From assembly GCA_027075275.1 (NCBI GenBank), contig JALTBO010000001.1, positions 1-46,959 on the forward strand: DNA of 46,959 bases. Reading direction: 5' to 3'. Source of the DNA: Desulfurobacteriaceae bacterium (GTDB taxonomy: Bacteria > Aquificota > Aquificia > Desulfurobacteriales > Desulfurobacteriaceae). The notes below the pieces were generated by a model. It made no database searches. It was not told the DNA's origin and saw nothing but the letters and a program-made list of their open reading frames with translations. This document shows, one piece after another, positions 286-46,291 of this stretch. The first letter of the stretch is position 1. Every line of letters starts with the position of its first letter. Position numbers and translations under genes: made by a program.

Positions 286-1171
286 AAAGCTTGTCTAACT
301 TCTCCCACAGCGTTCTTACTACCGGCAGAGGGGTAATGTCCTTTCTCCTTACGGCGAAGAAACACCTCTTTATTGAGAGCCCTTTGACCTTCAGAACCTT
401 CAGCTTTCCGCACTGAACCTCATCTTCAACGGAGTATTTGGAAACCAAACCGTAGCCGGCTCCTCGCTTTACGGCCTCTTTGATTGCCGTGTTGCTTCCA
501 AGGTAGGCAGCAATATTCAGGGTTCTCGGGTCAATTCCTGCTTTTTTCAGCTCCTCCTCAACGGTTCTCCTTGTTCCGGAGTCTGCCTCACGGAATATGA
601 GGGGAAGTTTAGGGAGCTCCTCAAGGTCTACCGAATTGCCCTTGTGGTAGGGTGGAGCTATCAAAACTATCTCGTCGTCGTGAATCTTCTTTGACTCAAG
701 CTTTGGATCTTTAACCTCAAGGCCAACGAACCCTATGTCAAAAGCTGGAAGCTGCTCTTTCAGCATTCCTATAACCTTGTTTGAGTCAAATATCTCAACA
801 ACAAACGTTACTTCCGGGAAGATATCTCTCAGTCTTCTTAAAACGTGAGGAATCAGATAGTCTCCAGGAATGTTGCTGGCTGCAATCTTCACAGTTCCCG
901 TGTGTGGTTTCTTGTCTAACGAAAGGAGCTCCGCTAAAGCCTCTTCCCTCTTCTTCAGTATCTCAACGGCGTGGCGGTAGAGTATTCTGGCTTCTGCTGT
1001 AGGAATAACCCTTCTACCAACTCTGTCAAAGAGCTTCTTTCCTAAGATGTCCTCAAGGTGCTGAATGTGGGTGCTCACAGTGGGTTGAGATAGACCCAAC
1101 TGCTGTGCAGCCTTAGAAAAGCTCTGGTTCTCAAAAACCCTTGCAAAGACTTCTAACTGTTTAATATCCAT
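257..1171 (-). CDS. LysR-family transcriptional regulator
   Basis: 304 residues, the standard LysR length. The N-terminal winged helix-turn-helix spans about residues 1-60, with the typical SFSKAAQQLGLSQPTVSTHI recognition region followed by LEDILGKKLFDR. Residues about 90-290 form the periplasmic-binding-protein-like effector domain (TVKIAASNIPGDYLIPHVL, then DIGFVG and a GYGLVSKYSVEDE segment). Its effector is unknown. It resembles the CysB/CbbR-like group, so a carbon- or sulfur-assimilation signal is possible, but this is a guess. It faces the citryl-CoA-lyase-like gene and overlaps its end, and it is only 3 nt downstream of a small membrane protein with which it probably forms one transcript. 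LysR proteins often regulate a divergent neighbour; here no such divergent neighbour is directly adjacent. Confidence 0.88.
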   Translation of the reverse strand: MDIKQLEVFARVFENQSFSKAAQQLGLSQPTVSTHIQHLEDILGKKLFDRVGRRVIPTAEARILYRHAVEILKKREEALAELLSLDKKPHTGTVKIAASNIPGDYLIPHVLRRLRDIFPEVTFVVEIFDSNKVIGMLKEQLPAFDIGFVGLEVKDPKLESKKIHDDEIVLIAPPYHKGNSVDLEELPKLPLIFREADSGTRRTVEEELKKAGIDPRTLNIAAYLGSNTAIKEAVKRGAGYGLVSKYSVEDEVQCGKLKVLKVKGLSIKRCFFAVRRKDITPLPVVRTLWEKLDKLFKNGRNGEC

Positions 1172-1174
1172 TTT

Positions 1175-1498
1175 TTACTCTAACCCCAAAATCTTTAGAA
1201 CTACATCAACTGTTACAAAGAAGAGAACACCAGACATAATTATTGAAATCATTGCACCGAATCCCCAGACAATAGGAGAAAGCTTCAGGCTCTTAACGTA
1301 GCGGATGTAGTAGAGGAAAGTTATGAGTGAGAAAATGGCAGCAAGTCCGATTTTCAGTCCGAAATAATCTTTAAGGTCTAAAACCTTTGAGAAGATACCA
1401 AGTGGAAGGAGAGAGAACATTGTCATCATATAGAGCCCTACGATTGTTGCTCCTATTCCGAGACCTTTGGCAAGGCCGTCGCTGAAACTTCTGGCCAT
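1175..1498 (-). CDS. Small membrane protein of unknown function
   Basis: I do not recognise this 107-residue protein. It has three hydrophobic segments, about residues 15-38, 45-65 and 76-102, separated by short charged loops (DLKDYFGLK and RYVKSLKLS), so it is predicted to be an integral inner-membrane protein with three helices. The start is supported by a strong Shine-Dalgarno sequence, GGAGGTG, just upstream on the minus strand (in the reverse complement of 1501-1510). It is the first gene of a two-gene minus-strand unit with the LysR regulator, 3 nt apart. No conserved catalytic residues are visible and no function is proposed. Confidence 0.75.
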   Translation of the reverse strand: MARSFSDGLAKGLGIGATIVGLYMMTMFSLLPLGIFSKVLDLKDYFGLKIGLAAIFSLITFLYYIRYVKSLKLSPIVWGFGAMISIIMSGVLFFVTVDVVLKILGLE

Positions 1499-1605
1499 TG
1501 TTCACCTCCGTTAAATTGTCTGAACTTATATTCTATCAAGTTTCTATTGTTTTGCATTTTTAAACTTTGAACAGATTGTCTTGCTTAGATTTAAAATGTT
1601 GCCTA

Positions 1606-1634: not shown

Positions 1635-1647
1635 AGCTCTCCAGATA

Positions 1648-1716: not shown

Positions 1717-1749
1717 AACTTTTTAAGAAACTTTAGAGAGGTAGGAAAC

Positions 1750-1956: not shown

Positions 1957-1983
1957 CTTAGAGCTTAAATTTAATTAGAATAG

Positions 1984-2065: not shown

Positions 2066-3316
2066 ATGGAGTTCAGTTTTAACCAGTTAGATGAGAGAAT
2101 TCAGAAATCTCTGGAAGAGATGGGTTTTGAGTCTCCAACACCTATCCAGAAAGAGGCCATTCCTGTTGCACTTAAAGGTGAAGACATCGTTGGGCAGGCA
2201 CAGACGGGAACGGGAAAGACAGCTGCATTCGGTATTCCCATAGTTGAAGGGATAAGCCCAAGGGAGAGGGGTGTTAAGGCGATAATCCTTACTCCTACGA
2301 GGGAGCTTGCCATTCAGGTTGCCCACGAGATTTCACTTATAGGGAAGAACAAGGGAGTTTCAGCCTATCCTATCTACGGGGGAGTTTCCATAGAGAGGCA
2401 GGCAAACATTCTGAGAAGGGGAAGAAATCAGATAATTGTTGGAACTCCCGGAAGGGTGAAGGACCTTATAAACAGGGGGATTTTAAAGCTTGATAAGGTT
2501 CGCTATGCTGTTTTAGACGAAGCAGACCAGATGTTAGATATGGGATTCATTGAGGATATTGAGGAGATTCTCTCAAAAACGCCTAAAGAGAAACAGACGA
2601 TGCTCTTTTCGGCAACTATGCCCTACGAGATAAGGAAGCTGATAGACAGCTACCTGAAGCCCGGCTATAAGTTCATCAAGGTCAGCAAGCAGCTTATCAC
2701 TCCGAAGGTTAAACAGAGGGTTTTGCTTGTCAGGAGTGAGGATAAGCTGAAAGCCCTTGAGAAGATTCTGAAGGAGAACGAGGGAACGGCAACAATTGTT
2801 TTCGTTAAGACAAAGAGGGACGCTGCCGATATTGAGAGGGAGCTCCAGCGCCGGGGCATAAACGCAAGGGCCATTCACGGAGACCTGTCTCAGAGGCAGA
2901 GGGAGAACGTTTTAAGGGCCTTCCGCGAGGGAAAGGTAAAGGTTCTTGTTGCCACAGATGTTGCGGCCAGAGGCCTTGACATTAAAGACGTTGGCCTTGT
3001 TATTAACTACGAGCTTCCCGAAAACCCCGAGAGCTACGTCCACCGTATCGGTAGGACTGGAAGGGCCGGAAGGGAAGGAACGGCAATAAGCCTCGTTGCC
3101 GAGCCTGAAAAGAGGAGAATGTATAGGATTAAGGGACTTAAAGGCATAAGGCCTGAGCGTTTCAGGGTTAACGACGTTAAAGAGCTGAAAGAGAAACTTC
3201 TCTCTGAAGATGCCAGCAGGGTTCCGGAGAGAATTAGGAAGCTGGCAGGGGAGCTCCTTCAGGAGAGACCTGCAGAGGAGATTGTTTCCCTTTTACTCTC
3301 AAAAATTATGAGGTAG
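2066..3316 (+). CDS. DEAD-box ATP-dependent RNA helicase
   Basis: 416 residues, a compact two-domain helicase. Visible motifs in order: Q motif (TPIQ, about 25-28), Walker A AQTGTGKT (45-52), PTREL (77-81), GG (105-106), TPGR (127-130), DEAD (151-154), SAT (182-184), then in domain 2 ARGLD (301-305) and HRIGRTGR (326-333). All catalytic motifs are intact. It unwinds short RNA duplexes using ATP in the cytoplasm. There is only a short basic/acidic C-terminal extension after the helicase core, so it resembles the minimal RhlE/CshA/DeaD type; I cannot tell which. Position directly after a cold-shock gene suggests a role in RNA or ribosome remodelling at lower temperature. Start supported by AAGAGGAGAG before the ATG. 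The csp terminator precedes it, so expression needs read-through or a separate promoter. Confidence 0.95.
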   Translation: MEFSFNQLDERIQKSLEEMGFESPTPIQKEAIPVALKGEDIVGQAQTGTGKTAAFGIPIVEGISPRERGVKAIILTPTRELAIQVAHEISLIGKNKGVSAYPIYGGVSIERQANILRRGRNQIIVGTPGRVKDLINRGILKLDKVRYAVLDEADQMLDMGFIEDIEEILSKTPKEKQTMLFSATMPYEIRKLIDSYLKPGYKFIKVSKQLITPKVKQRVLLVRSEDKLKALEKILKENEGTATIVFVKTKRDAADIERELQRRGINARAIHGDLSQRQRENVLRAFREGKVKVLVATDVAARGLDIKDVGLVINYELPENPESYVHRIGRTGRAGREGTAISLVAEPEKRRMYRIKGLKGIRPERFRVNDVKELKEKLLSEDASRVPERIRKLAGELLQERPAEEIVSLLLSKIMR

Positions 3317-3332: not shown

Positions 3333-3333
3333 T

Positions 3334-4269
3334 CTAAAAAGCTCCAATCTTTCTGAATTTCTGATACCTATTCTCAACAAGTTCTTCAGGTGAGAGTTTT
3401 TTAAGGTCATCAAGGTGTTTCTTAACGTAGTTTCTGAAGTTCTCAAAGGTTGTTTCCCAATCTCTGTGGGCACCCTCTAAGGGTTCAGGAATTATCTCAT
3501 CAACGATTCCCAATTTTTTGAGTTCTTCAGCAGTTAATTTTAGAGCCTCTGCCGCCTCTTTCACTTTGTCCTGAGACTGCCAGAGGATTGCTGCGCAGCC
3601 TTCAGGGGAAATTACTGAATAGATAGAGTTCTCAAACATTAAAAGCCTGTTTGCAACTGAAATTGCCAGAGCTCCTCCGCTTCCTCCTTCTCCAATAACA
3701 ACGCTGACAACGGGAACTTTCAGTTTAGACATCTCAAGGAGGTTCCTTGCAATGGCTTCAGACTGACCGTGCTCCTCTGCTTCTATTCCGGGAAAGGCTC
3801 CGGGGGTATCAACTAAGGTGATGATGGGCTTTCTGAACTTCTCGGCCAGTTTCATAACCCTTAGGGCCTTTCTGTAGTCTTCGGGAAGGGGCATTCCGAA
3901 GTTCCTCTCTATCTTCTCCTTTGTCTCCCTTCCCTTTTCCTGTCCGATTACACATACGCTTTCACCTTCAAACTTTGCAAACCCTGCAACTATTGCCTTT
4001 CCGTCTCCGCAGTGGCGGTCGCCGTGGAGCTCTACAAAGTCCTCAAAAACAGCCCTTATGTAGTCAACGGCGTGGGGGCGGTTGGGATGGCGGGCTATTT
4101 GAACCCTATCCCAGGCGGAGAGGTTCCTGTAGAACTCCTCAATCTTCTTCTGGAACTTCCTCTCTATCTCCTCAATTACGGCAGGGTCGTGTTTTCCCAT
4201 CTGTTTCAGTTCCTCAATTTTCTTTCTGAGCCTGTCTACCTGAAGTTCAAACTCGTGCAGTCCGGCCAT
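3334..4269 (-). CDS. accA: Acetyl-CoA carboxylase carboxyltransferase subunit alpha
   Basis: 311 residues, close to the usual 315-320. It transfers the carboxyl group from carboxybiotin to acetyl-CoA, making malonyl-CoA for fatty-acid synthesis, in complex with AccD. Visible family features: an N-terminal helical region (residues 1-55), ARHPNRPHAVDYI (59-71), LHGDRHCGDGKAIVAG (81-96), ETKEKIERNFGMP (115-127), the DTPGAFPG segment (154-161) and the oxyanion-hole EGGSGGALAI region (194-203). It starts 10 nt after the dnaE stop on the same strand, and the dnaE-accA order is the same as in Escherichia coli. accD, accB and accC are not in this window. The start ATG has a purine-rich upstream sequence inside the dnaE 3' end. 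Confidence 0.96.
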   Translation of the reverse strand: MAGLHEFELQVDRLRKKIEELKQMGKHDPAVIEEIERKFQKKIEEFYRNLSAWDRVQIARHPNRPHAVDYIRAVFEDFVELHGDRHCGDGKAIVAGFAKFEGESVCVIGQEKGRETKEKIERNFGMPLPEDYRKALRVMKLAEKFRKPIITLVDTPGAFPGIEAEEHGQSEAIARNLLEMSKLKVPVVSVVIGEGGSGGALAISVANRLLMFENSIYSVISPEGCAAILWQSQDKVKEAAEALKLTAEELKKLGIVDEIIPEPLEGAHRDWETTFENFRNYVKKHLDDLKKLSPEELVENRYQKFRKIGAF

Positions 4270-4279: not shown

Positions 4280-7200
4280 TCAGTTTACTTTTATCTTCTT
4301 CAGGTTCAGGTTTTCCTGAAGGGTCTTAAGGATATGTGCATCAAGGGGTAACTTCAAGTCCGGGTCTATTTGCAATTTTACAAAACAGTCGGGGAGCTCC
4401 GCCTCAACAACAACCGGCTTTCCGTCTGGCGAGGAGTTCTCCTCTATGAAGCTCCTGAGCCTTGAGAGGGTCTCCTCTGTTATCCGGCTTCCGTCTATCG
4501 TTATAACGATTTCGTTTACCTGCCCCGAAACCGCTTCGCGGACTGAGACAATCTCCCTTGCTATAACGCTTTTGCTCTCCTCCTCTTCCCTTACCTGTCC
4601 TCTGATGGCTATCAGGTTTCCTTCAGTGAGGAGCTCCGAAACCTCCCTGTAAACGTTGGGAAAGACCAGAACGGATACGGTTCCGTCAAGGTCTGTAAGT
4701 TCTAAGGTTGCCCAGAGCTCTCCCCTCTGAGTCCTCCTAAGCTTCACTTCAGTTATGGCTCCTGCAAGGAAAACCTCCTCTCCATCCTTCCACTCCTCCT
4801 TCTCAGATGAGGAGTTGAACTTCAGCTCAACAACTCCTTTATACTCCTCTAACGGATGGCCAGAGAGGTAGAAGCCTATAGCCTGCCTCTCGTACTCCCA
4901 CTTTATCCTGTCGTTCCACTCTGGAATGTCGGGGAATTCCTTATCAACAACAGCTGTCTCATCTCCAAAGAGGCTCATAAGTCCCTTACTCTTTGACTTC
5001 TGAATGCTCTGGGCTGCGTTCATTGCCCTGTCTAAAACTTCGTAGTTTGCGGCTCTTGATATTCCTGTGGAATCAAAGGCTCCAGCCTTTATAAGGGCTT
5101 CAATGACCTTCCTGTTCACAATTTTCAGGTCAACCCTTTGGCAGAAGTCGTAGAGGTCCTTAAACTCTCCTCCTTCTTTCCTTACTTCCTCAATGTGCAG
5201 AGCTGCCTTCTCTCCAACGCCCTTAATACCTGCAAGGCCAAACCTTATTCCCTCACCTTCAATCTCAAAGTAGGCTCCGCTTTTATTGATATCCGGCGGA
5301 AATACCGGAATTCCGTTCTCCTTACAGTCTTTCATGAACTTTACAATCTCATCGGTTTTATCAAAGTCAATAGACATCATCGTTGCCATCAGCTCTTTAG
5401 GGTAGTGGGCCTTCAGGTAGGCAGTTACGTAGGCAAGGAACCCGTAGGCAGCAGAGTGGGACTTGTTGAAGCCGTACTCTGCAAATTTTGCAATGTCGTC
5501 AAAGAGCTTCTCTATTTTCTCTTTCGGATAACCTCTCTCAACAGCCCTTGAGACGAAGAATCCCCTCTGTTCCTCCATTATCTCCTTCTTCTTTTTACCC
5601 ATTGCCCGCCTTAAGAGGTCTGCCTCTCCTAAAGAGTAGCCTGCAAGTATGTTGGCGATTTGCATTATTTGTTCCTGATAGATAAAGAGGCCGTAGGTCT
5701 CTTTGAGAACCGGCTCAAGCTCAGGGAAGATGTAGTCAACCTCTTCCTCTCCGTGTTTCCTCTTTATGTAGCTTTCCGCCATTCCGGAGTTAAGGGGACC
5801 GGGCCTGTAGAGGGCAACGAGGGCGATGATGTCCTCAAAAACGCTGGGCTTGAGCCTCTTCATCAGGTTTCTCATGCCCCTTGATTCTAGCTGGAAGACG
5901 CCGATTGTGTTTCCTTCCTGAAGGAGCTTAAAGGTCTTCTCGTCGTCTAAAGGAAGTTTTGTCGGAACTATCTCAACGCCGTGCCTCTCTTTTATGAGCT
6001 TTATGGTTCTGTCTATGATAGTGAGAGTTTTGAGGCCTAAAAAGTCCATCTTCAGAAGGCCTAAGGACTCAACCTGACCCATGTCGTACTGTGTTGTGAT
6101 GTCTCCGTCTTTGCTCTTTGCCAGCGGTATGTAGTCTGTGAGGGTTTCAGGGGCGATAACAACGCCTGCAGCGTGGACTCCCGTTTGGCGGGCAAGCCCT
6201 TGAAGCCTTTTAGCTATCTTTATGAGCCTTTCAACTGTTGGGTCTTTCTCCATAAGGTCTTTGATTTCGGGAGCTCTCTCTACAGCATCCTCAACAGACT
6301 TCGCATCGTTTGGAATGAGCTTTGCTAACTTGTCAACCTCTTTCGGCGGAATTCCGAGAACCCTTCCTACATCCCTGACAACCATCTTTGTTTTCATGGT
6401 TCCGAAGGTTATGATCTGGCAGACCTTGTCCTCTCCGTACTTATCCCGAACGTACTGAATAACCCTGTCCCTTCCCTCCTGACAGATGTCAACGTCAATA
6501 TCGGGCATCGTTACCCTTTCAGGGTTTAAGAACCTCTCAAAGAGGAGGTTGAACCTTAATGGGTCTATGTCTGTAATGCCTATGGCGTATGCAACTAAAG
6601 AGCCTGCTGCTGAACCCCTGCCGGGGCCGACGGGAATTCCGTTTCTCTTTGCCCAGTTGATAAAGTCCCAGACGATCAGGAAGTATCCCGGGAATCCCAT
6701 ATCGCTGATTATCTTCAGCTCGTGGTTGAGTCTTTCGTAGTACTTCTGTTTTTTCTCTCCGTCTATAATTCCCTGCTCTTTAAACCTCCTTTCAAGGCCT
6801 TCCTCTGCAAGTTTTCTTAAGTAGCTCTCGTAGGTGTATCCTTCAGGAACTTCATACTTTGGAAGGAGGTATCCTCTGTTCTCAAAAGTTTCTAACCTAT
6901 CTTCAATCTTCTCGGCAATTTTTAGAGTGTTGAAGATGGCCTGGGGAACTTCACTGAAAACTTCCATCATCTCCTGAGCGTTCTTGAAGTAGAACTCCTT
7001 GCTTGGGAACCTCATTCGCTTTTCGTCGGCAAGTTTTTTGCCTGTTTGAAGACATAGAAGAACGTCGTGGGCTTCCCAGTCCTCTCTGTTGAGGTAATGG
7101 GCGTCGTTTGTTGCAACAAGGTCTATGTCAAGTTTTCTGGAGAGCTCTATCAAAAATCTGTTAGCCTTTTCCTGCTCTTTAATTCCGTGGTACTGGATTT

Positions 7201-7875: not shown

Positions 7876-8805
7876 ATGGCCAAAAGCCGTGGATTCTGGG
7901 CAGACTGGACTTTCGGTAAGGTTGCAGCCCTTTCGGCACTTCTGGTTGTTGTTATACTGATAGCTCTTGCAGTGGTTCTCTACGGTGAATCTGAGCTTGC
8001 CATTAAGACCTTTGGCGTCTGGAAGTTTATAACCTCAACGGTGTGGAACCCTCCAATGAATAAGTTTGGGGGAGCTCCCGCCATCTTCGGAAGCGTCGTC
8101 AGCACCATCATATCCATTCTGATAGCCGTTCCCGTTGCCATCGGCGTTGCCATCTTCCTCACAGAAATTGCTCCCCACTACTTAAGAGCACCTGTTGGTG
8201 TAGCAATAGAGCTCCTTGCGGCCATTCCCAGCATCATCTACGGAATGTGGGGGCTCTTCTTCTTTGCACCCTTTATGAGAGATAAGCTCCAGCCGGTAAT
8301 CCACGCCACTTTAGGAAAACTTCCCTTAATCGGCCAGTGGTTTGAGGGATACACCCCAGGTATCGGCCTTCTAACGGCTTCAATTGTCCTTTCAATAATG
8401 ATACTTCCCTACACAGCGGCCATATCCCGGGATTCTTTTAAGATGGTTCCAGATATCCTGAAAGAGTCTGCCTACGCCCTGGGAGCTACAAAGTGGGACG
8501 TTATGAAAGACGTTGTTATCCCTTACGCAAAGTTAGGCGTTGTAGGTGGAGTGATCCTCTCTTTAGGAAGAGCTTTAGGCGAAACGATGGCGGTAACCTT
8601 TGTTATGGGTAACCAGCCGGTAATTCCCCACTCCCTTTTAGAACCGGCAACCTCTATTACTGTTACTCTGGCAAACGAGTTTACAGAGGCAGATTCCGAT
8701 ATCTACCTGTCAAGCCTGTTCTACCTGGCTTTTATTCTCTTCGTTATGAGCTTCTTTGTGATAGTTATTGGGAAGTTCCTTTTCCTTAAAAAAGTGGAGA
8801 GGTAA
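7876..8805 (+). CDS. pstC: Phosphate ABC transporter permease PstC
   Basis: 309 residues from the ATG at 7876, which has GGAG 7 nt upstream; an upstream in-frame TTG at 7846 has no ribosome site and is less likely. The protein has six hydrophobic segments (first at about 15-40) and the binding-protein-dependent permease domain with the EAA loop: [21 protein letters not shown]. The G(R)ALGETMAV sequence after it is characteristic of PstC/PstA. With PstA it forms the inner-membrane channel for inorganic phosphate, powered by PstB. The stop is followed after 3 nt by pstA. A Pho-box-like repeat lies upstream. No pstS gene for the periplasmic binding protein is present in the window. Confidence 0.92.
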   Translation: MAKSRGFWADWTFGKVAALSALLVVVILIALAVVLYGESELAIKTFGVWKFITSTVWNPPMNKFGGAPAIFGSVVSTIISILIAVPVAIGVAIFLTEIAPHYLRAPVGVAIELLAAIPSIIYGMWGLFFFAPFMRDKLQPVIHATLGKLPLIGQWFEGYTPGIGLLTASIVLSIMILPYTAAISRDSFKMVPDILKESAYALGATKWDVMKDVVIPYAKLGVVGGVILSLGRALGETMAVTFVMGNQPVIPHSLLEPATSITVTLANEFTEADSDIYLSSLFYLAFILFVMSFFVIVIGKFLFLKKVER

Positions 8806-20080: not shown

Positions 20081-20103
20081 GGGAGCTCCGCTCCCTTTCG
20101 TTT
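20081..20103 (+). terminator. Short terminator-like hairpin after nuoN
   Basis: GGGAGC (20081-20086) and GCTCCC (20090-20095) form a 6-bp GC-rich stem with a 3-nt loop, followed by TTTCGTTT. The 5' part contains the window-wide palindrome GGAGCTCC (20082-20089). A perfect -10 hexamer, TATAAT, follows at 20103-20108 and could start the next operon, but no -35 is visible. Confidence 0.55.
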
Positions 20104-37717: not shown

Positions 37718-38434
37718 ATGGCGCTTACGGTTCAACCTCTCTACGTACTTGCCTCAGGGAGCGAGAGGGCCAAAGAACAGCTTGACATCGTTACAAACAA
37801 CATAGCGAACGTCAACACTCCCGGGTTTAAGAGAATCCTTATGGAGGAGTTTTCCCAGCACATTCCCAGGAACAGAGGAGACAGCTATAACCTGCTCATT
37901 TTCCCCCGGTTCAAGAGGACAGACGTTGTGCTGGAGCAGGGAGCTCTCAGGAAAACAGGGAACCCGTTAGACGTTGCTCTGAAAGGCAGAGGTTTCTTTG
38001 CAGTGAAAACCAAGGCCGGTGAAGTTTATACGAGGAACGGCCACTTTTTCATAGGGCCGGACGGAACACTTGTTGATGCAAACGGCAATCCGGTTTTAGA
38101 TATATCCGATAGGGAGATAGTTTTAAGGGGTGAGTCAAAAGTAACCATTACGGAAGACGGAGTTGTTTACGATGGAGATAGAAAGGTAGGTGTTTTAAAG
38201 ATAGTTGATTTCTCCTCTGTAAAACCTTTAGGAAACTCCTACTACGCCGGAAATGGGCAGCCAATGGCTACAGATGCTGCAGTTCTTCAGGGTTATTTAG
38301 AGGATTCAAACGTGAACCCTGTAAAGGAGATGGTTAGGCTCATAGAGGCCCAGAGGAGGTTTGAGATATACGGGAATCTCATAAGAGGTCTTGATCAGTT
38401 GAACCTTAAGAGCAACGAGATAGGAAAAGTTTAA
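37718..38434 (+). CDS. flgF: Flagellar basal-body rod protein FlgF
   Basis: 238 residues. The N-terminal LDIVTNNIANVNTPGFKR motif is shared by rod and hook proteins; DVALKGRGFFAVKT and YTRNGHFFIGPDG are typical of the FlgF/FlgG group; the C-terminus has the family's NVNPVKEMVRLIEAQRRFEIY helix. It is assigned as FlgF, the proximal rod subunit, because of its length and because a clear FlgG follows 11 nt downstream, but a second FlgG-like protein cannot be ruled out. No signal peptide, since it is exported by the flagellar type III system. Confidence 0.87.
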   Translation: MALTVQPLYVLASGSERAKEQLDIVTNNIANVNTPGFKRILMEEFSQHIPRNRGDSYNLLIFPRFKRTDVVLEQGALRKTGNPLDVALKGRGFFAVKTKAGEVYTRNGHFFIGPDGTLVDANGNPVLDISDREIVLRGESKVTITEDGVVYDGDRKVGVLKIVDFSSVKPLGNSYYAGNGQPMATDAAVLQGYLEDSNVNPVKEMVRLIEAQRRFEIYGNLIRGLDQLNLKSNEIGKV

Positions 38435-38445: not shown

Positions 38446-39246
38446 ATGCTTAGAGCTCTCTGGACTTCAGCTTCTGGAATGGAAGCTCAGCAGACAAACC
38501 TTGATGTTATCTCAAACAACATAGCAAACGTTAACACCGTAGGTTTTAAGAAATCAAGGGCTAACTTTGAGGACCTGATATACCAGGACATCAGAGACCC
38601 GGGGGTTATGAGTTCCGACGAAAACAGGGTACCTTCAGGAATTCAGATAGGCCTTGGTGTAAAGCTTTCAGACGTCAGCAAGATATTTACTCAGGGAAGC
38701 TTAATAAAGACAGACAAACCGTTGGACATTGCCATTCAGGGACACGGCTTTTTCAAGATAGAGCTCCCCGGAGGCGGAGAAGCCTACACGAGGGCTGGAA
38801 ACTTTCAGCTTGACGATCAGGGCTACTTCGTTACTCCAGAAGGTTACAGGCTCTCTCCAAACATTCAGATCTCATCTCCAGAAACGGTTGTGAGCATCTC
38901 AATTTCACCCAGCGGAAAGGTTTACGTTGTTAGGAATTCCGGTGGTCAGGAGGTAACCGAAGAGGTGGGCCAGATAAAGCTCTACAGGTTTATGAACCCG
39001 GCCGGCCTGAAGGCTATAGGTGGAAACCTCTTTGTTCAGACCGACGCTTCCGGAGAGCCGATAGAGGGAGATCCCAACACAGACGGCTTTGGAAAGCTTA
39101 CTCAGGGCTTTTTAGAGGCGTCAAACGTAAACATTGTTGAGGAGATGGTCAACCTTATAGTTGCTCAAAGAGCCTACGAGATAAACTCTAAAGGGATAAT
39201 AGCTGCCGATGAGATGCTTAGAACTGTTGCCAGCCTTAAGAGTTAA
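38446..39246 (+). CDS. flgG: Flagellar distal rod protein FlgG
   Basis: 266 residues, the standard length. Begins MLRALWTSASGMEAQQTNLD and NNIANVNTVGFKKSRANFEDLIYQ, both diagnostic of FlgG, and includes GIQIGLGVKL and TQGSL typical segments. It ends with the NVNIVEEMVNLIVAQRAYEINSKGI helix. FlgG forms the distal rod that crosses the periplasm. Exported by the flagellar system, so no signal peptide. Ribosome site AAGGAGGGAG precedes the ATG; its 3' end overlaps flgA by about 38 nt. Confidence 0.95.
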   Translation: MLRALWTSASGMEAQQTNLDVISNNIANVNTVGFKKSRANFEDLIYQDIRDPGVMSSDENRVPSGIQIGLGVKLSDVSKIFTQGSLIKTDKPLDIAIQGHGFFKIELPGGGEAYTRAGNFQLDDQGYFVTPEGYRLSPNIQISSPETVVSISISPSGKVYVVRNSGGQEVTEEVGQIKLYRFMNPAGLKAIGGNLFVQTDASGEPIEGDPNTDGFGKLTQGFLEASNVNIVEEMVNLIVAQRAYEINSKGIIAADEMLRTVASLKS

Positions 39247-40177
39247 CCTGTTTTTCCTTTTTCTCTTCTTTCTGCTCTCTCCTGTCTCTTTCGGGGCAGA
39301 GGTTTTTCTTAGGGGCCATTCCCGTGTTTCCGGTCAGGAAGTAACACTGGGAGAAATTGCAGATATTAAGGGAACTTCTGTTGAGAAGGAGCTCCTTTCT
39401 TCCATAAGAGTTGTCGATTCACCACCTCCCTGCAGAGAGAGGGTTATCTCAAAGGAGGATATTGCAAGGGAAATAGCCGATTACCTGAGGGAGAACGGTA
39501 TCTCTGTAAAGGAGATAGCTATAAAAGGGGCAGAGAGGGTTTCAATAACTTCTGTCTGTTTGGTTATTGACGGAGACCACATCAGGAAGCTGATAGAGAA
39601 CTTTTTTAAAAAGAACTATCCTCAGTACGAGGTGATTTCCGTTCCCGACTTAAACGTAAAACTTCCCTACAACAGGTATGAGGAGCATCTGTCTCTTGAT
39701 TACCTGGGCCGGAATTCCGCCCGGTTTGTCTACGAGATAACAGTTAACGGGAAGACTGTAAAGAAGTTCTGGATTCCAGTCAGGGTTGAGAGAAAGGTAA
39801 AGGTGGTTGTTGCCGTGAAACCCATTCCACGGGGAAGTGTTATTACTTCTGATGAGGTTTCACTGAAAAGTGTGGTTGAGAGTAAGGCCAGAGGAGGAAC
39901 AGACAACATTTCCTCTATCGTTGGAGCTACGGCAAGGAGAGATTTCCTGCCGGGAGACGTTATAACAAAAAGCGGAATTATTCCTAACTTTGCCGTAAGG
40001 AGAAATCAGCCTGTTAGAGTGGTTTACAGGAGTGGAGCTATAAGGGTGGAGCTCCTTGGAATAGCACTACAGGACGGCGTTGTGGGGAATATAATAAAGG
40101 TGAAAAACCCATCTACCGGAAAAGTTTTGCTATGCAGAGTTACTGGAAATGGATTGGTGGAGTTTGTATCCCGTTAG
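39209..40177 (+). CDS. flgA: Flagellar P-ring assembly chaperone FlgA
   Basis: 322 residues if started at the ATG at 39209; the true start is uncertain, with a TTG at 39227 as alternative, and neither has a good ribosome site. A signal peptide follows (VNLFFLFLFFLLSPVSFGA) so it is periplasmic. The C-terminal SAF domain begins near VVAVKPIPRGSVITSDEVSL, with PGDVITKSGI and VVYRSGAIRVELLGIALQDG, as in FlgA, the chaperone for P-ring subunit FlgI. The N-terminal half is variable as expected. The overlaps with flgG and flgH (46 nt) indicate very compact packing. The position before flgH and flgI fits. Confidence 0.88.
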   Translation: MRCLELLPALRVNLFFLFLFFLLSPVSFGAEVFLRGHSRVSGQEVTLGEIADIKGTSVEKELLSSIRVVDSPPPCRERVISKEDIAREIADYLRENGISVKEIAIKGAERVSITSVCLVIDGDHIRKLIENFFKKNYPQYEVISVPDLNVKLPYNRYEEHLSLDYLGRNSARFVYEITVNGKTVKKFWIPVRVERKVKVVVAVKPIPRGSVITSDEVSLKSVVESKARGGTDNISSIVGATARRDFLPGDVITKSGIIPNFAVRRNQPVRVVYRSGAIRVELLGIALQDGVVGNIIKVKNPSTGKVLLCRVTGNGLVEFVSR

Positions 40178-41920: not shown

Positions 41921-42217
41921 ATGATAGACGGAGTTGGTAAAGCAGAGGTTTACTGGGACCTTGCTCAGATTGAGGGTATAAAGAGTGGAAAAGAGGCGGT
42001 TAAACAGTTTGAAGTTTACCTTGTTAACCAGTTCCTCAAAGAGGCAGAAAAGTCTATGCCGGAAGGTCTTTTCTCTCCTGAGGGGAGTTTCGCATCAAGG
42101 CTCTATCACGACCTGTTCAGTATGGAGCTCTCCCAGAAGATAGGTGAGGAGTTAGGAAAGAGCCTTGAACCGATGTTTAGCAGGGTTTTGAAAGCTTACG
42201 GGAGAGAGGGAGGTTAA
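41921..42217 (+). CDS. flgJ: Rod-binding protein (FlgJ N-terminal domain only)
   Basis: 98 residues. It matches the N-terminal rod-capping domain of FlgJ: KQFEVYLVNQFLKEAEKSMP then SFASRLYHDLFSMELSQKIGE. The muramidase domain of the enterobacterial FlgJ (about 310 residues) is absent, as in many other phyla, so a separate peptidoglycan hydrolase would be needed. It helps rod assembly in the periplasm. ATG at 41921, ribosome site GGTGGGAG, and TAATG overlap with flhA. Confidence 0.85.
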   Translation: MIDGVGKAEVYWDLAQIEGIKSGKEAVKQFEVYLVNQFLKEAEKSMPEGLFSPEGSFASRLYHDLFSMELSQKIGEELGKSLEPMFSRVLKAYGREGG

Positions 42218-44295
42218 TGAAAGACTCGTTAACCCTGTACTACTCGCGGGTTTATAAGTACTCCGACCTTATTTTTGTTATTCTCCTTCTGGCTATTCTG
42301 GCCAGCATGATACTTCCCATTCCACCGCTTCTTCTGGACATTCTCCTTACTTTTAGTATCTCTTTCTCTTTAGTTATTCTTATGACAACGGTTTACGTTA
42401 AGCACCCGTTGGAGCTCTCCTCATTCCCTTCCCTTCTCCTCCTTGCAACCCTTCTCCGCCTCTCCCTCAACGTGGCTACAACCAGAAGAATTCTTCTCCA
42501 CGGGAACGAGGGACCAGATGCAGCCGGTAGTGTTATAAAGGCTTTCGGTCAGTTTGTTGTTGGCGGCAACTACGTTGTGGGAATTATCGTCTTTGCCATT
42601 TTAGTCGTAATAAACTACATCGTTGTTACAAAAGGAACGGAAAGGATTTCAGAAGTCGCTGCACGCTTTGTTTTAGATGCAATGCCCGGTAAACAGATGA
42701 GCATAGATGCAGACCTGAATGCCGGCCTTATAGATGAGGAGGAGGCCAGAAGAAGGAGAGAGGAGATAGCCCGTGAGGCTGACTTCTACGGAGCTATGGA
42801 CGGTGCTTCAAAGTTTATCCGTGGAGATGCTGTAGCCGGTATCATTATTACCTTAATAAACATTATCGGCGGTTTAATAATAGGTATGGTTCAACACCAT
42901 ATGAGTTTCTCTGATGCCCTTAAAACCTTCACAATTCTTACAGTTGGAGACGGCCTCGTTTCTCAAATTCCTTCTCTTATTACCTCAACAGCTGCAGGTC
43001 TTATGGTTACCCGAGCTGCAGCAGAGACAGACCTCGGTCACGAGATATTCAAACAGCTGACCAAGTACCACAAACCACTGTTTATGGCCGCCCTGATTTT
43101 ACTTATTATCGGTATAGTTCCGGGAATGCCTACACTTCCCTTTGCTCTCCTTTCAGCTCTTGTTGCTGCTGTTGGTTATATGGTCTATAAGTACGAAACT
43201 GTTAAGGAGTTTGAGGAGGCTCAGCAGAAGGCCAGGGAGCTTATAGAAAAAGGGAAAGAGGAGAAACCGGAGGATCTGATAGTTCAGCCTGAGCCTATAA
43301 CCCTTGAGATAGGTTATTCGCTGATTCCTTATGTTGATGAGAGTCAGGGAGGGGAGATCGTTGAAAAGATTAAGAACCTAAGAAAACAGCTTGCTAAAGA
43401 GCTGGGAATAGTTATTCCCCTTGTTCATATAAGGGATAACCTTGAGCTGAAGCCCAACGAGTACAGGATTCTTCTAAGGGACGTTGAGGTTGCAAAGGGT
43501 GAGGTAGAGCCTGGCAAGTTCCTTGCAATTGATACTGGAGGTGTAAGGGGAGAGGTAAAGGGCAAGCCTACCAAGGAACCGGCATTTGGCCTTACTGCAT
43601 ACTGGGTTGATGACTCTGAGAAAGACAGGGCAAAGCTTTTAGGTTATACGGTCGTAGATGTTCCTACCGTTATAGTTACCCACTTATCTGAAGTTATTAA
43701 AAAACACGCTCACGAGATTGTCAGCCGTGCAGACATTAAAGAGATGGTTACAAAACTGGCCTCCCGATATCCTGTTGTTAGGGATATGGTTCCGGAACCT
43801 GTTTCTTACGGAATTCTGACAAAGGTTGTTCAGAACCTTCTGAAAGAGGGGATTCCCGTTAAGGATCTTCTAACAATCATTGAGTCTGTTGCAGACAACA
43901 TTGAGAAGACGCAGGATCCTGACGTTCTTACAGAGTTTGCAAGGCAGTCTCTTTCCCGTCTGATTACCAGTCTCTACGCTCAAAACGGCGTTCTAACAGC
44001 CCTTTCTCTCTCTCCTGAAGCTGAGGAGTATATAATGAAGAAAGTTAAGGAAAACGACGGTTATCTTCCTCCTTTAGATCCGGTCTTTGTCCAGAACCTT
44101 GTTAAGAGCGTTTCAGAGGGGATTGGTCACTTTTTGGGACAGCAGCTCATTCCTGTTATCCTTACGTCTCCTGCTGTAAGGCGTTTTGTCAGAATGATTC
44201 TTGAGCCTTATCTTCCCAACGTTGCAGTTCTCTCTTACGCTGAAGTTGAGCCGGGAGTTCAGTTAAACATTGTTGGGGTGGTTGACGGAAAATGA
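42217..44295 (+). CDS. flhA: Flagellar type III export gate protein FlhA
   Basis: 692 residues, standard. About eight N-terminal membrane helices (residues about 18-320) include RLSLNVATTRRIL, the conserved MPGKQMSIDADLNAGLIDEEEARRRR loop and GDGLVSQIPSLITSTAAGLMVTR, all signatures of the FHIPEP family. The C-terminal half (about 350-690) is the cytoplasmic ring that binds export chaperones. It is the main export-gate component that converts proton flow to protein secretion. TAATG and ATGA overlaps join it to flgJ and flhF. Confidence 0.96.
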   Translation: MKDSLTLYYSRVYKYSDLIFVILLLAILASMILPIPPLLLDILLTFSISFSLVILMTTVYVKHPLELSSFPSLLLLATLLRLSLNVATTRRILLHGNEGPDAAGSVIKAFGQFVVGGNYVVGIIVFAILVVINYIVVTKGTERISEVAARFVLDAMPGKQMSIDADLNAGLIDEEEARRRREEIAREADFYGAMDGASKFIRGDAVAGIIITLINIIGGLIIGMVQHHMSFSDALKTFTILTVGDGLVSQIPSLITSTAAGLMVTRAAAETDLGHEIFKQLTKYHKPLFMAALILLIIGIVPGMPTLPFALLSALVAAVGYMVYKYETVKEFEEAQQKARELIEKGKEEKPEDLIVQPEPITLEIGYSLIPYVDESQGGEIVEKIKNLRKQLAKELGIVIPLVHIRDNLELKPNEYRILLRDVEVAKGEVEPGKFLAIDTGGVRGEVKGKPTKEPAFGLTAYWVDDSEKDRAKLLGYTVVDVPTVIVTHLSEVIKKHAHEIVSRADIKEMVTKLASRYPVVRDMVPEPVSYGILTKVVQNLLKEGIPVKDLLTIIESVADNIEKTQDPDVLTEFARQSLSRLITSLYAQNGVLTALSLSPEAEEYIMKKVKENDGYLPPLDPVFVQNLVKSVSEGIGHFLGQQLIPVILTSPAVRRFVRMILEPYLPNVAVLSYAEVEPGVQLNIVGVVDGK

Positions 44296-45437
44296 GTGTA
44301 AAGGTTTACGAAGGAGAGGATTTAGATGCCCTTATTGAGAGGGCAAAGAAAGAGCTTGGAGATGTTGAGATACTCTACTACGAGGTTGAGAAGGTTCCAG
44401 GGATAATTCCCTTCTTTAAGAGGAGGCGTTATAAACTCTTTGTAACAAAGAGGGAGGAGAAAGAGGAGAAGAATAAAGAGGTTGAGAGACTTGAGGAGGA
44501 GTTGAGGGAGGTTAAGGAACTCCTTCTAACCCTCAAAGAGAACGTTTCAAAAATCCCGGCTCAACAGCACATTCACGTTCCTTCTGTTCCTGAACACCTT
44601 GAGGATAGAGCTCCCTGCATAATTCCTCAGCTTGACGAGTTTACCGGAGATGCTGTTGAGCTTATCAACCTGCTGGTTAAGAAGGGAGTTGAACCAGATA
44701 TAGCAGTTGAGCTGGTTAAATCTTCCTGCGGTCTGGATATAGAGACAGAAAAACTTGACCTCAACACCAATACCTTTAAAGAGGCCCTTATAAATGCCTT
44801 TAACGAGAGGCTCTCCTTTACCGGAGAGCTCAAAGTTGAGAGAGGAAAACAGAGGATTTTTGCCTTTATAGGTCCTACGGGAGTCGGGAAGACTACAAAC
44901 CTGTTCAAGCTTGCCAGTAAGTTTGTCATAGAGCAGGAGCTTAAAGTTGGCGTTATCTCTACAGATACCTTTAAAGTTGGGGGAACCCAGCAGGCGAGAA
45001 TTTACGCTTCAATACTTAACGTTCCTTTCTACGTTGCCACAGACCAGAGAAAATTGAAGGAGATAGTGGAGAACCTATCGGATTTAGACGTTATACTGAT
45101 AGACACGGTAGGCAGAAGCCACTACGACTACTTTAGACTGGGAGAGATAAAGGCTACTCTCTCCGTTTTGGGAGCTTCTATAGAGTACGTTCTTCTGGTT
45201 TCATGTAATTACGATACAAAAGAGGCTATGGAGGTTGTAAACAGGTACAGGAGCTTTTTCCCGGTAGATTTTCTCCTCTTTACCAAAATAGATGAATCTT
45301 CAAGACCTGGCGTTATGGTTAACGTGGGAGTGAAATCGGGACTTCCTCTTTCTTATGTGAGCACGGGCCAGAGAGTTCCTGAAGATATTAAGCTTTTGAC
45401 ACCTTCGGTAATAGCTGATATTTTACTGGGAGGCTGA
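44292..45437 (+). CDS. flhF: Signal-recognition-particle-like GTPase FlhF
   Basis: 381 residues. N-terminal basic/acidic region (about 1-85) with a coiled stretch, then the SRP-type NG domain: G1 GPTGVGKTTN (about 196-205), DTFKVGGTQQARIYA, DTVGRS (in place of the usual DTAGR) and TKIDESSRPG. FlhF fixes the position and number of flagella, normally at the cell pole, together with FlhG (next gene). It is the regular flhA-flhF-flhG order. ATGA overlap with flhA, TGATG with flhG. Confidence 0.95.
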   Translation: MSVKVYEGEDLDALIERAKKELGDVEILYYEVEKVPGIIPFFKRRRYKLFVTKREEKEEKNKEVERLEEELREVKELLLTLKENVSKIPAQQHIHVPSVPEHLEDRAPCIIPQLDEFTGDAVELINLLVKKGVEPDIAVELVKSSCGLDIETEKLDLNTNTFKEALINAFNERLSFTGELKVERGKQRIFAFIGPTGVGKTTNLFKLASKFVIEQELKVGVISTDTFKVGGTQQARIYASILNVPFYVATDQRKLKEIVENLSDLDVILIDTVGRSHYDYFRLGEIKATLSVLGASIEYVLLVSCNYDTKEAMEVVNRYRSFFPVDFLLFTKIDESSRPGVMVNVGVKSGLPLSYVSTGQRVPEDIKLLTPSVIADILLGG

Positions 45438-46291
45438 TGGAGAAGCAGGCAGAGAAGTTAATAGAGCTTGTGAGGGAGAAGAACAGAAGTAGTAGGTGTA
45501 AGGTCCTTTCCTTTGTCAGCGGTAAGGGAGGTGTTGGGAAAACAAGCGTTTCAACCTCCTTTGCCTATACCCTTGCCAACGTTTTCAGGAAAAGAGTTCT
45601 ACTTCTTGACTGTGACATAGGGCTGGGGAACGTTCACCTTCTGCTGGGGCTTGATCCTTCAAAGAACCTGAAGGCGGTTTTGAGGGGGAGCTCCCTCAAA
45701 GAGGTCATTCAGAGTGTTTACAACTTTGACGTTGTTTTAGGCTTTTCCGGAATAGACTCTTTAGAGGAGTTAGAGTCCTACGAGGCCGCAAACTTACTGG
45801 TTCAGTTAGATAGGGTTATGGACAGCTACGATTTCATCATTTTAGACAACTCAGCAGGCATTTCCCGTTTTACAGTTAACTTCACAAGAGCAGCTTCAGA
45901 AACCTACGTCGTAACTACTCCTGAACCTACAGCTCTTACAGACGCCTACGCATTCATAAAGAGCGTTTACAAGGTTTACGGATACTCATCTTTCAAAGTT
46001 ATTATTAACTCTGCCTTGTCAAAGAGCGAAGGTTTTGAAACCTTTGAGAGACTCAGGACCTCAGTTGAAAGGTTTTTAGGGTTCCGGCTAAAGCTTGCAG
46101 GTATTCTTCCCCATTCCTGCAGGTTAAAAGAGGCTTTAAATTCCGGGAAACCTGTGGTTCACCTCTACCCTTCAGATCCGTTTTCCCTTGAACTCAGGAA
46201 GATAGTTCAGCTGGAGACGGGAGAGGCTCTTTTAGAGGAGAAGGAGAGCTTTATAAAGAGACTAATTCGTTTCTTCAAGGAAGGTAGTTAA
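45437..46291 (+). CDS. flhG: MinD-like ATPase FlhG (YlxH/FleN)
   Basis: 284 residues. The deviant Walker A SGKGGVGKTS (28-37) and LLDCDIGLGNVHLLLG are MinD/ParA features; an N-terminal KQAEKLIELV segment resembles the DQAxxLR motif by which FlhG activates FlhF. DNSAGIS and TTPEPTALTDAYAFIK complete the ATPase core. It limits flagellar number and works with FlhF at the pole. The C-terminus ends in a basic amphipathic helix (SFIKRLIRFFKEG) probably binding the membrane. TGATG and TAATG overlaps on both sides. Confidence 0.95.
   Translation: MEKQAEKLIELVREKNRSSRCKVLSFVSGKGGVGKTSVSTSFAYTLANVFRKRVLLLDCDIGLGNVHLLLGLDPSKNLKAVLRGSSLKEVIQSVYNFDVVLGFSGIDSLEELESYEAANLLVQLDRVMDSYDFIILDNSAGISRFTVNFTRAASETYVVTTPEPTALTDAYAFIKSVYKVYGYSSFKVIINSALSKSEGFETFERLRTSVERFLGFRLKLAGILPHSCRLKEALNSGKPVVHLYPSDPFSLELRKIVQLETGEALLEEKESFIKRLIRFFKEGS

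Follow-up and report, generated by a model that had tools for sequence, protein, structure and literature searches.

The window, a 46,959-nt stretch from a 1.48-Mb draft genome of the Desulfurobacteriaceae, harbors 29 exact copies of the palindromic octamer GGAGCTCC, with starts running from 613 to 45687 (Table 1). Because the window contains 75 GAGCTC in all, these copies are accompanied by 46 further cores, the same numbers that an earlier note on this DNA had reported; 31 of the 46 are other RGAGCTCY forms, for a total of 60 RGAGCTCY, and 15 have other flanks. Base composition predicts 0.5 copies of the octamer and simple arithmetic with equal bases 0.72, hence the note's agreeing figure of about 40 times expectation. 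The over-representation is in fact stronger than was stated. Dinucleotide shuffles of the window (n = 100) gave 1.33 ± 1.08 copies (maximum 4), and genome-wide the draft contains 1290 copies compared to 2 of the reversed word. The runner-up 8-mer palindrome in the window has 9 copies.

The copies fall in the several codon contexts that had been described: 20 read GAG CTC, seven GGA GCT and one AGC TCC (45687), while one is noncoding (20082). A codon-preserving shuffle, named in the earlier note as the refuting test, failed to reproduce the excess, giving 2.18 copies (maximum 6, n = 60) for the 28 coding copies observed; a shuffle that also fixed the bases across codon boundaries gave 3.75 (maximum 7, n = 60). 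The noncoding copy starts just beyond the stop of a nuoN-like gene (gene end 20079), within a predicted hairpin (6 bp) with TTT after it. Its assignment to a terminator is plausible only, because the surrounding 75-nt stretch folds no significantly better than shuffles (z -1.13). The absence of CTCGAG, which had been offered as a contrast, was also borne out (0 copies in the window). However, CTCGAG is a poor control because its centre, TCGA, occurs only twice in the window and is depleted relative to synonymous shuffles in all genus groups of the family, with strong depletion in g1, g4, g6, and g7 without Thermovibrio ammonificans (g1 is the window's own genus; g2, g4, g5, g6, and g7 are other genus groups).

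Table 1 RGAGCTCY words in the window.
Word	Position	Strand	Context	Basis
GGAGCTCC	613..620	.		exact match
GGAGCTCC	925..932	.		exact match
GGAGCTCC	2839..2846	.		exact match
GGAGCTCC	3250..3257	.		exact match
GGAGCTCC	4393..4400	.		exact match
GGAGCTCC	4630..4637	.		exact match
GGAGCTCC	8071..8078	.	GGA GCT CC	exact match, frame from ORF
GGAGCTCC	9303..9310	.	GAG CTC	exact match, frame from ORF
GGAGCTCC	14111..14118	.		exact match
GGAGCTCC	14435..14442	.	GAG CTC	exact match, frame from ORF
GGAGCTCC	18521..18528	.		exact match
GGAGCTCC	20082..20089	.	noncoding, terminator-like hairpin after nuoN-like gene	exact match, hairpin prediction
GGAGCTCC	20174..20181	.	GGA GCT CC	exact match, frame from ORF
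GGAGCTCC	23228..23235	.		exact match
GGAGCTCC	23596..23603	.		exact match
GGAGCTCC	23719..23726	.		exact match
GGAGCTCC	24275..24282	.		exact match
GGAGCTCC	25813..25820	.		exact match
GGAGCTCC	28287..28294	.	GAG CTC	exact match, frame from ORF
GGAGCTCC	28323..28330	.		exact match
GGAGCTCC	30933..30940	.	GGA GCT CC	exact match, frame from ORF
GGAGCTCC	32360..32367	.		exact match
GGAGCTCC	35507..35514	.		exact match
GGAGCTCC	35888..35895	.		exact match
GGAGCTCC	36045..36052	.		exact match
GGAGCTCC	37401..37408	.		exact match
GGAGCTCC	39388..39395	.		exact match
GGAGCTCC	40048..40055	.		exact match
GGAGCTCC	45687..45694	.	AGC TCC	exact match, frame from ORF
AGAGCTCC	3668..3675	+	RGAGCTCY	match
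AGAGCTCC	8208..8215	+	RGAGCTCY	match
AGAGCTCC	12909..12916	+	RGAGCTCY	match
AGAGCTCC	13556..13563	+	RGAGCTCY	match
AGAGCTCC	20582..20589	+	RGAGCTCY	match
AGAGCTCC	23178..23185	+	RGAGCTCY	match
AGAGCTCC	38760..38767	+	RGAGCTCY	match
AGAGCTCC	44607..44614	+	RGAGCTCY	match
GGAGCTCT	4026..4033	+	RGAGCTCY	match
GGAGCTCT	6270..6277	+	RGAGCTCY	match
GGAGCTCT	14147..14154	+	RGAGCTCY	match
GGAGCTCT	16215..16222	+	RGAGCTCY	match
GGAGCTCT	16245..16252	+	RGAGCTCY	match
GGAGCTCT	18362..18369	+	RGAGCTCY	match
GGAGCTCT	18760..18767	+	RGAGCTCY	match
GGAGCTCT	18877..18884	+	RGAGCTCY	match
GGAGCTCT	18988..18995	+	RGAGCTCY	match
GGAGCTCT	19129..19136	+	RGAGCTCY	match
GGAGCTCT	19735..19742	+	RGAGCTCY	match
GGAGCTCT	22865..22872	+	RGAGCTCY	match
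GGAGCTCT	26590..26597	+	RGAGCTCY	match
GGAGCTCT	32756..32763	+	RGAGCTCY	match
GGAGCTCT	32969..32976	+	RGAGCTCY	match
GGAGCTCT	33236..33243	+	RGAGCTCY	match
GGAGCTCT	33403..33410	+	RGAGCTCY	match
GGAGCTCT	37940..37947	+	RGAGCTCY	match
GGAGCTCT	42124..42131	+	RGAGCTCY	match
GGAGCTCT	42411..42418	+	RGAGCTCY	match
AGAGCTCT	4714..4721	.	RGAGCTCY	match
AGAGCTCT	7141..7148	.	RGAGCTCY	match
AGAGCTCT	38452..38459	.	RGAGCTCY	match

The enriched unit is RGAGCTCY and is close to saturation

The octamer had been taken as the exact unit; GGAGCTCC is instead only the commonest member of RGAGCTCY. In g1, enrichment over a context shuffle was 6.2-fold for GGAGCTCC, 2.9-fold for AGAGCTCC and 1.8-fold for AGAGCTCT, and the seven remaining flank classes of GAGCTC were unenriched (0.2–0.9-fold). 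Once the core is fixed, the two flanks vary almost independently, as a symmetric reader would produce. Some other-flank forms are mildly raised outside g1 (in g7, GGAGCTCA 25 vs 16.0). For single substitutions inside the core in g1, eight of nine classes reach at most 1.5-fold and GGAGCTAC 2.2-fold, compared to the 2.9-fold of the end variant AGAGCTCC. Measured against the context shuffle, no 8-mer in g1 ranks above GGAGCTCC (193 vs 27.5), and GAGCTC ranks first or second among 6-mers in g1, g2, g6, and g7 without T. ammonificans.

RGAGCTCY is scattered randomly over resident DNA, with near-random spacing (mean 704 bp, CV 1.09) and densities in g1 of 1.33/kb in coding and 0.93/kb in noncoding DNA. 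The log-odds favoring it in g1 are similar, ~2.3 to 3.1, across three frames that encode different amino acids. The word fills 418/702 of the amino-acid-permissible positions in g1, 169/240 in g6 and 192/333 in g7 without T. ammonificans, a saturation of 0.58–0.70 compared to 0.08 for neutral; g2 is weaker (88/283, 0.31). Noncoding DNA also shows an excess (13 vs 1.6 in g1, 6 vs 0.66 in g6), in small counts and at a level (ln ratio 1.1–1.9) below the coding one. Saturation in R-M loci is 133/232 (0.57) vs 779/1275 (0.61) in other genes. Five R-M loci have just 2 of 24 permissible positions filled.

Synonymous conservation of RGAGCTCY within g1 is 1.38-fold, compared to 0.92–1.17-fold for eleven control words. 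Between genera the excess is 1.31-fold and is equalled by two of the eleven (TTGCAA, 1.31-fold; RGAATTCY, 1.30-fold, n = 80), the pairwise comparisons being non-independent since they share sequences. Amino-acid contexts that permit the word occur at 1.11–1.56 times the level of within-protein shuffles in 13/13 positive genomes and at 0.53–1.10 times in 7/7 negative genomes.

Distribution across the family and replacing words

Of 22 family genomes, 13 are enriched in RGAGCTCY (2.3–4.1-fold over the context shuffle, z 4.5–17.8). Enrichment is unclear in G120, one of three g2 genomes (4 vs 1.8), and two lineages hold the core below expectation (G129, 14 vs 122; G127, 8 vs 31). In T. ammonificans the word is close to context-shuffle expectation (1.12-fold); there and in genus g5, GAGCTTC stands in for it, a replacement that could be placed on the tree. 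The replacing words, GAGCTTC (3.0-fold in G132, 2.3-fold in G129) and AAAATCCYC (8.5-fold in G127), are non-palindromic. In T. ammonificans, both orientations of GAGCTTC are enriched to the same degree, no strong strand bias was found in 13 stretches of 20 kb (21/13 to 15/22; origin not located), and its density is 2.78/kb on the plasmid, which encodes a TraC/TraG-type ATPase, vs 1.80/kb on the sampled chromosome.

A cell-wide force as the probable driver of the word

These data are best read as showing a word of the HIP class that either a genome-wide substitution bias or uniform weak selection has spread, and we consider it somewhat probable that RGAGCTCY is a highly iterated palindrome of this class in the Desulfurobacteriaceae, driven by a cell-wide, location-independent force. 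Such a force would act on each site with a population-scaled strength of ~3. Its simplest agent would be a protein that binds or repairs DNA sequence-specifically and tilts mismatch repair or gene conversion toward its own site, a drive that could operate with or without benefit to the cell. Were the protein lost or its specificity changed, the old word would decay and another could rise, as GAGCTTC may have done in T. ammonificans and g5. No effector gene for drive was found. The argument for drive is therefore built on uniformity and saturation, both of which would likewise follow from uniform weak selection for a binding site. A broader proposal, tentative and rather doubtful as it stands, is that HIP-type words in general reflect methylation-independent substitution drive, whereby a DNA-reading repair or recombination protein would convert near-misses to its own site on all replicons, stopping only where the encoded protein leaves no room; it would even shift amino acids slightly and would switch word as its specificity drifts; the Desulfurobacteriaceae and cyanobacteria would then be two instances of one mechanism.

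Direct weak selection on a functional binding site, for nucleoid organisation or as an orientation-free (Chi-like) recombination signal, is unlikely. The excess synonymous conservation, the amino-acid shifts and the even treatment of a palindromic word across contexts would all be expected of it, and HIP1 was judged to be selection-maintained, perhaps structural, as reported in a citing paper (PMC6604393). However, thousands of near-equal, near-randomly spaced sites that press to saturation are hard to fit to a density-only function, the replacing GAGCTTC is still denser on the plasmid, and G129 and G127 hold the core under expectation.

We regard as improbable the methylation-coupled model of Elhai, whereby an orphan methyltransferase modifies a cytosine within the word and mismatch repair, directed by the methyl mark, moves sequences stepwise toward it. 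According to Elhai 2015 (PMC4390886), HIP density is ~1 per kb, the proposed repair signal is G-mC and, wherever a cyanobacterial genome has a highly over-represented word, it also encodes a putative methyltransferase that could modify that word. G-mC could come from the AGCT at the centre of RGAGCTCY, and 12/13 positive genomes have some PF01555 match. Clustering of 37 genes taken from loci with PF00145, PF01555 or PF02086 matches gave, at 30% identity with single linkage, a loose PF01555-type cluster spanning 10/13 positive genomes and one negative genome; at 45% identity, however, the broadest cluster covers only 4/13 positive genomes and a negative one. PF00145 (m5C) is present in 0/6 genomes of g1 and 3/13 positive genomes, and G117 (99% complete, 1309 copies) has no PF00145, PF01555 or PF02086 match. 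G117 does contain one gene resembling type I enzymes, at the end of a contig. The set-point of the model also predicts a halt near 1 per kb, while here the ceiling looks like amino-acid permissibility, and Elhai himself records HIP1-rich genomes without a CGATCG methyltransferase (PMC4390886). With no methyltransferase common to the 13 positive genomes found among these three type II families, the methylation target suggested in the earlier note is so far unsupported.

That the word is an uptake signal, enriched by transformation as competence machinery favors word-bearing DNA, with GAGCTTC and the like as dialects, is quite improbable. ComEC-type PF03772 is present in 20/24 genomes, including 17/17 near-complete ones, and the equal enrichment of GAGCTTC in both orientations and the different words in different lineages resemble DUS dialects (PMC3630211). 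Yet competence genes do not follow the word: they are present in 7/7 negative genomes, and PF03772 is unmatched in 3/13 positive genomes including the window's draft (drafts 62–89% complete). The plasmid and accessory-gene results further disfavor this role, which the note had also listed, as GAGCTTC is denser on the plasmid and R-M loci are saturated, while in the Neisseriaceae DUS distribution served to spot horizontally acquired elements (PMC7371117). The lower noncoding density of RGAGCTCY is opposite to the description, in PMC3630211, of intergenic regions as particularly permissive for DUS. The word is also palindromic, which DUS are not known to be.

That the word is an artefact, whether of codon usage, of dipeptide bias or of base composition, has a negligible chance of being correct. 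Codon usage could explain why GAGCTC and CTCGAG are both frequent in many family f3 genomes, and the near-shuffle level in T. ammonificans would suit such an artefact. Against it stand both codon-preserving shuffles, the excess in three frames and in noncoding DNA, the sister genera that are negative and the control words, and it is refuted for the 13 genomes by their enrichment over the context shuffle.

HIP1, for which one published model invokes DNA methylation, dates back to a 1995 description (as cited in PMC4390886). A second HIP-like case from another phylum, in heat-loving bacteria and without a common methyltransferase found, offers a second route to the function of such repeats, and sister genera in which RGAGCTCY has been lost, is avoided or has given way to another word provide a new comparative contrast. 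Cultured, sequenced carriers exist, D. thermolithotrophum with RGAGCTCY and T. ammonificans with a replacement, and therefore tests of binding, methylation and mutation would be direct. Being simple and calibrated, the saturation measure can be used to seek such words elsewhere.

Comparison with known systems

GAGCTC is a SacI-type restriction site, and RGAGCTCY has the same core hexamer; restriction, however, predicts avoidance, which is seen in G129 and G127 and reversed in the 13 positive genomes. Chi sites of RecBCD/AddAB are likewise short words over-represented genome-wide, but they show orientation bias along replichores, whereas RGAGCTCY is a palindrome without orientation and GAGCTTC, able to have one, lacks strong strand bias in the T. 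ammonificans stretches. The DUS of Neisseriaceae/Pasteurellaceae share with it a short word present at least 1000 times, dialects that differ by lineage and, in near-complete genomes, competence genes; they differ from RGAGCTCY in its palindromy, its lower noncoding than coding density and its saturation of R-M loci, and in the enrichment, rather than depletion, of GAGCTTC on a plasmid.

The parallel to HIP1 drawn in the earlier note, whose interpretation as a whole is partly supported, is the closest. HIP1 (GCGATCGC) is itself not the word here: its sequence and phylum are other, RGAGCTCY has degenerate R..Y ends and no common methyltransferase found, and its replacing words are non-palindromic. 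According to Elhai 2015 (PMC4390886), the HIP class comprises over-represented palindromic 6–10-mers at ~0.5–2.5 per kb, with variants mostly at the first and last positions and sporadic loss with the rise of another dominant word. RGAGCTCY is a top-ranked palindrome of this density, with outer-position variants, loss and replacement, and near-saturation, the latter criterion being calibrated in the present analysis and not taken from Elhai 2015. Like HIP1 and alternate HIPs, it is a dominant palindromic octamer at ~1 per kb, present in all frames and in noncoding DNA and conserved at synonymous sites, and its ~60% saturation matches that of HIP1 on two cyanobacterial plasmids by the same measure (26/43 and 54/90, 0.60).

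Counts and shuffle tests

The earlier note had reported 29 copies of the octamer GGAGCTCC in the window, a number that our exact count returned, the total for its core GAGCTC being 75. Dinucleotide shuffles of the window gave an expectation of 1.33 copies with a maximum of 4 (100 shuffles). For the 28 coding copies, shuffles of the 50 called window genes (60 each) gave 2.18 (maximum 6) when synonymous codons were exchanged and 3.75 (maximum 7) in a context shuffle, which preserves codons and also retains bases across codon boundaries. The whole draft genome (136 contigs, 1,481,592 bases, 87% complete) contains 1290 copies vs 2 of the reversed word. Hence the over-representation withstood both the codon-preserving shuffles and the genome-wide count that had been proposed to refute it, and the two gene shuffles rule out codon usage or dipeptide bias as the cause of the excess. 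CTCGAG, the palindrome of the same composition that the note did not see in the window, was dropped as a control because its centre, TCGA, is depleted. CTCGAG is found in 3-8 copies in four of the six genomes of the window's genus (g1) and in 962-2797 copies in genomes of two other families (G006, G008, G014, G021 and G023 of f3; G109 of f5), where its abundance is possibly a matter of codon usage. The gene content of the window is ordinary (positions 2066-46291: DEAD-box helicase, accA, dnaE, pst genes, nuo cluster, purM, inositol-phosphate synthase, thioredoxin reductase, recN and a flagellar cluster from fliG to flhF).

The repeated unit

Flanks of GAGCTC were analyzed in stretches from every genome of the order except G113, G114 and G120 (21 of 24), with long non-overlapping ORFs taken as genes. 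In the six g1 genomes, three forms exceeded the context shuffle, GGAGCTCC (193 vs 31.2), AGAGCTCC (168 vs 57.3) and AGAGCTCT (58 vs 31.8), and the seven remaining flank classes reached 0.22-0.93 of expectation. By the same shuffle, the three R..Y forms were raised about equally (2.8-3.4x) in AT-rich genus g2, 3.6-5.1x in g6, and 2.8, 2.8 and 1.2x in g7 without Thermovibrio ammonificans, where GGAGCTCA was also mildly up (1.6x). Once the core is fixed, the bases on its two sides vary almost independently of each other (g1: GGAGCTCC 206 vs 183.9). Therefore, the unit is the degenerate palindrome RGAGCTCY, with 60 copies in the window (29 + 8 + 20 + 3). One of the nine core single-substitution classes exceeds 1.5x in g1 (GGAGCTAC, 2.2x, and likewise 1.8x in the negative genomes defined below), and GGAGCCCC is almost missing there (1 vs 13.7 expected).

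Distribution over genomes and tree

Of the 22 genomes in the family, 13 hold more RGAGCTCY than the context shuffle predicts (2.3-4.1x, z 4.5-17.8); these are termed positives here. By this measure G120 of g2 showed no clear enrichment (4 vs 1.8), T. ammonificans HB-1 (G132, g7) was near expectation (1.12x), and the seven genomes of g3, g4 and g5, termed negatives, were without enrichment (0.03-1.14x). Whole-genome counts of GGAGCTCC agree, with 100-1451 in the positives, 4-17 in the negatives, 44 in G120, 327 in T. ammonificans, and 14 and 18 in the two genomes of the neighboring family f2, whose sequence was too scant for an enrichment call. Concatenating 13 orthologs of window genes from 21 genomes, with three data-poor genomes omitted, gave a tree that, rooted on f2, resolved the genera as (g3,(g2,(g4,(g6,(g5,(g7,g1)))))). 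RGAGCTCY was therefore probably already present in the ancestor of the clade beside g3, and g4, g5 and T. ammonificans would have lost it later.

RGAGCTCY by genus
Group	Enriched genomes	Permissible positions filled	Noncoding copies, observed vs expected
g1	6/6	418/702 (0.60; neutral 0.077 by synonymous shuffle)	13 vs 1.6
g2	2/3	88/283 (G121, G122)	4 vs 0.68
g6	2/2	169/240	6 vs 0.66
g7	3/4	192/333 (without G132)	3 vs 0.71 (without G132)
G132		132/557 (neutral 0.12)	4 vs 1.9
g3	none	14/437	0
g4	none	5/245	0
g5	none	1/407	0

Elsewhere in the class, G044 of family f3 shows AGAGCTCC 42 vs 13.2, AGAGCTCT 28 vs 11.6 and GGAGCTCC 19 vs 9.5; the RGAGCTCY excess is weak in G041 and absent from four further sampled f3 genomes (G016, G009, G001 and G020). 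Among the matches listed, no publication dealt with RGAGCTCY in Aquificota, which is not a claim of its absence from print. A weaker word, AACGGCA, is up 1.5-3.7x in most family samples, including the window's genome.

Other palindromes are avoided. Relative to the synonymous shuffle, GATC was seen 0 vs 147 times in T. ammonificans coding sequence (57 kb; 11 in 260 kb), TCGA 3 vs 249 in g6, GGCC 3 vs 58 in g4, and CTAG 5 vs 259 in g3; relative to the context shuffle, g6 has CCAGGA 0 vs 42 and CCTGGA 0 vs 37 (samples G132, G130-G131, G127-G128 and G123-G126). These extreme palindrome depletions look like strong restriction-site avoidance.

Saturation and conservation

Of the positions at which the amino acids permit RGAGCTCY, more than half are filled in g1, and T. 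ammonificans retains a residual excess by this measure. The log-odds in g1 are 2.96 ± 0.32, 2.34 ± 0.43 and 3.07 ± 0.20 in the three frames, and spacing there is near random (mean 704, CV 1.09). Synonymous codons within RGAGCTCY are identical between g1 genomes at 909 of 1085 sites vs 657 expected (1.38x; eleven control words, 0.92-1.17x) and between genera at 463 of 671 (1.31x; controls reach 0.90-1.31x). In many pairs, a site in one genome predicts a site in another beyond permissibility (G000 vs G131, 19/23 against 4/13), and in some pairs it fails to do so (G000 vs G133, 7/17 against 4/10). Permissive amino-acid contexts exceed within-protein shuffles (five each) by 1.11-1.56x in 13 of 13 positives, compared to 0.53-1.10x in the seven negatives, 1.19x in T. 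ammonificans and 0.87x in G120, an excess that may stem from lineage differences in dipeptide preference.

R-M loci are about as saturated (133/232) as other genes (779/1275). In five of them (G135 L075; G133 L002, L007, L021 and L046), most of which are AT-rich and which may be recent, RGAGCTCY occupies 2 of 24 permissible positions.

REPLACEMENTS

T. ammonificans has an excess of the non-palindromic word GAGCTTC on the coding strand (203 vs 73.9) and the other strand (231 vs 79.2), with 3095 copies in total. GAGCTTC is also frequent in G129 of g5 (236 vs 103), where GAGCTC is scarce (14 vs 122); the two genomes are non-sisters on the tree. A separate word, AAAATCCYC (GRGGATTTT), dominates in G127 of g4 (48 vs 5.6, both orientations; e.g. 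L157-L162).

The T. ammonificans plasmid (NC_014917.1) carries 213 copies of GAGCTTC (2.78/kb), and the 260 kb chromosome sample is sparser (469 copies, 1.80/kb). The plasmid encodes a TraG-type ATPase, annotated as TraC family, and is typed by PLSDB as non-mobilizable. Its genes in stretches L170-L173 also contain a repeated word specific to the plasmid, counted as TGCCCGCA (41 vs 1.8) and CTGCCCGC (33 vs 3.0).

METHYLTRANSFERASES

Five methyltransferase families were searched with working controls (PF00145, PF01555, PF02086, PF02384 and PF07669), and no methyltransferase common to the positives was found in them. PF00145 had matches in none of the six g1 genomes and in three of 13 positives, one a fragment; PF02086 matched in five. 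PF01555 matched in 12 of 13 positives, split among several groups: in a clustering of 37 genes (24 PF01555, 9 PF02086 and 4 PF00145 loci; weaker or fragmentary matches left out), the widest group at 45% identity comprised G000, G116, G119, G122 and the negative G126, and single linkage at 30% gave a loose cluster of 10 positives plus G126, although several picked frames lacked a catalytic motif and are possibly the wrong frame. G117 (99% complete, 1309 copies) had no match to PF00145, PF01555 or PF02086 and carries a type I-like gene. Those PF02384 and PF07669 matches across genomes that measure about 250-300 aa are, given this length, probably RNA or protein methyltransferases. One PF01555 enzyme, L010 (G000:C98), recurs in G116 and G119 at 95-97% identity, and the region of its motifs may resemble that of GATC-type, DpnA-like enzymes.

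The PF00145, PF01555 and PF02086 patterns, together with G117, thus do not support for RGAGCTCY the methyltransferase coupling of Elhai's model (PMC4390886); unknown, divergent or convergent enzymes are possible, and several genomes are incomplete drafts. For Desulfurobacterium thermolithotrophum DSM 11699 (the species of positive G122), the part of the SMRT report available to us gives only CACC (PMC8259958).

Mechanism and comparison with known systems

In the reading that we favor, RGAGCTCY would be raised by a cell-wide substitution drive exerted by a putative sequence-reading DNA protein. The similar force in three frames, outside genes, towards saturation and in R-M loci, together with GAGCTTC on a plasmid, argues that such a drive, or uniform weak selection, fits the evidence better than an uptake signal. 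Methyl-directed repair and a selected binding site stand as rivals to this drive. DNA uptake is a rival as well, against which weigh the R-M loci and the plasmid. The distribution of DNA uptake sequences (DUS) in Neisseriaceae served to detect acquired DNA (PMC7371117), and intergenic DNA is described as permissive for DUS (PMC3630211).

The closer likeness is to HIP1, the highly iterated palindrome of cyanobacteria. By our saturation measure, HIP1 fills 26 of 43 permissible positions (0.60; neutral 0.05) on Synechocystis pSYSM (50 kb) and 54 of 90 (0.60; neutral 0.03) on a conjugative plasmid of Trichormus variabilis (100 kb). Plasmid-borne copies are thus seen for HIP1 and likewise for the replacing word GAGCTTC, the two words to which the plasmid data apply. 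Filled to 0.60 in g1, as HIP1 is on both cyanobacterial plasmids, RGAGCTCY therefore shares the statistical anatomy of HIP1.
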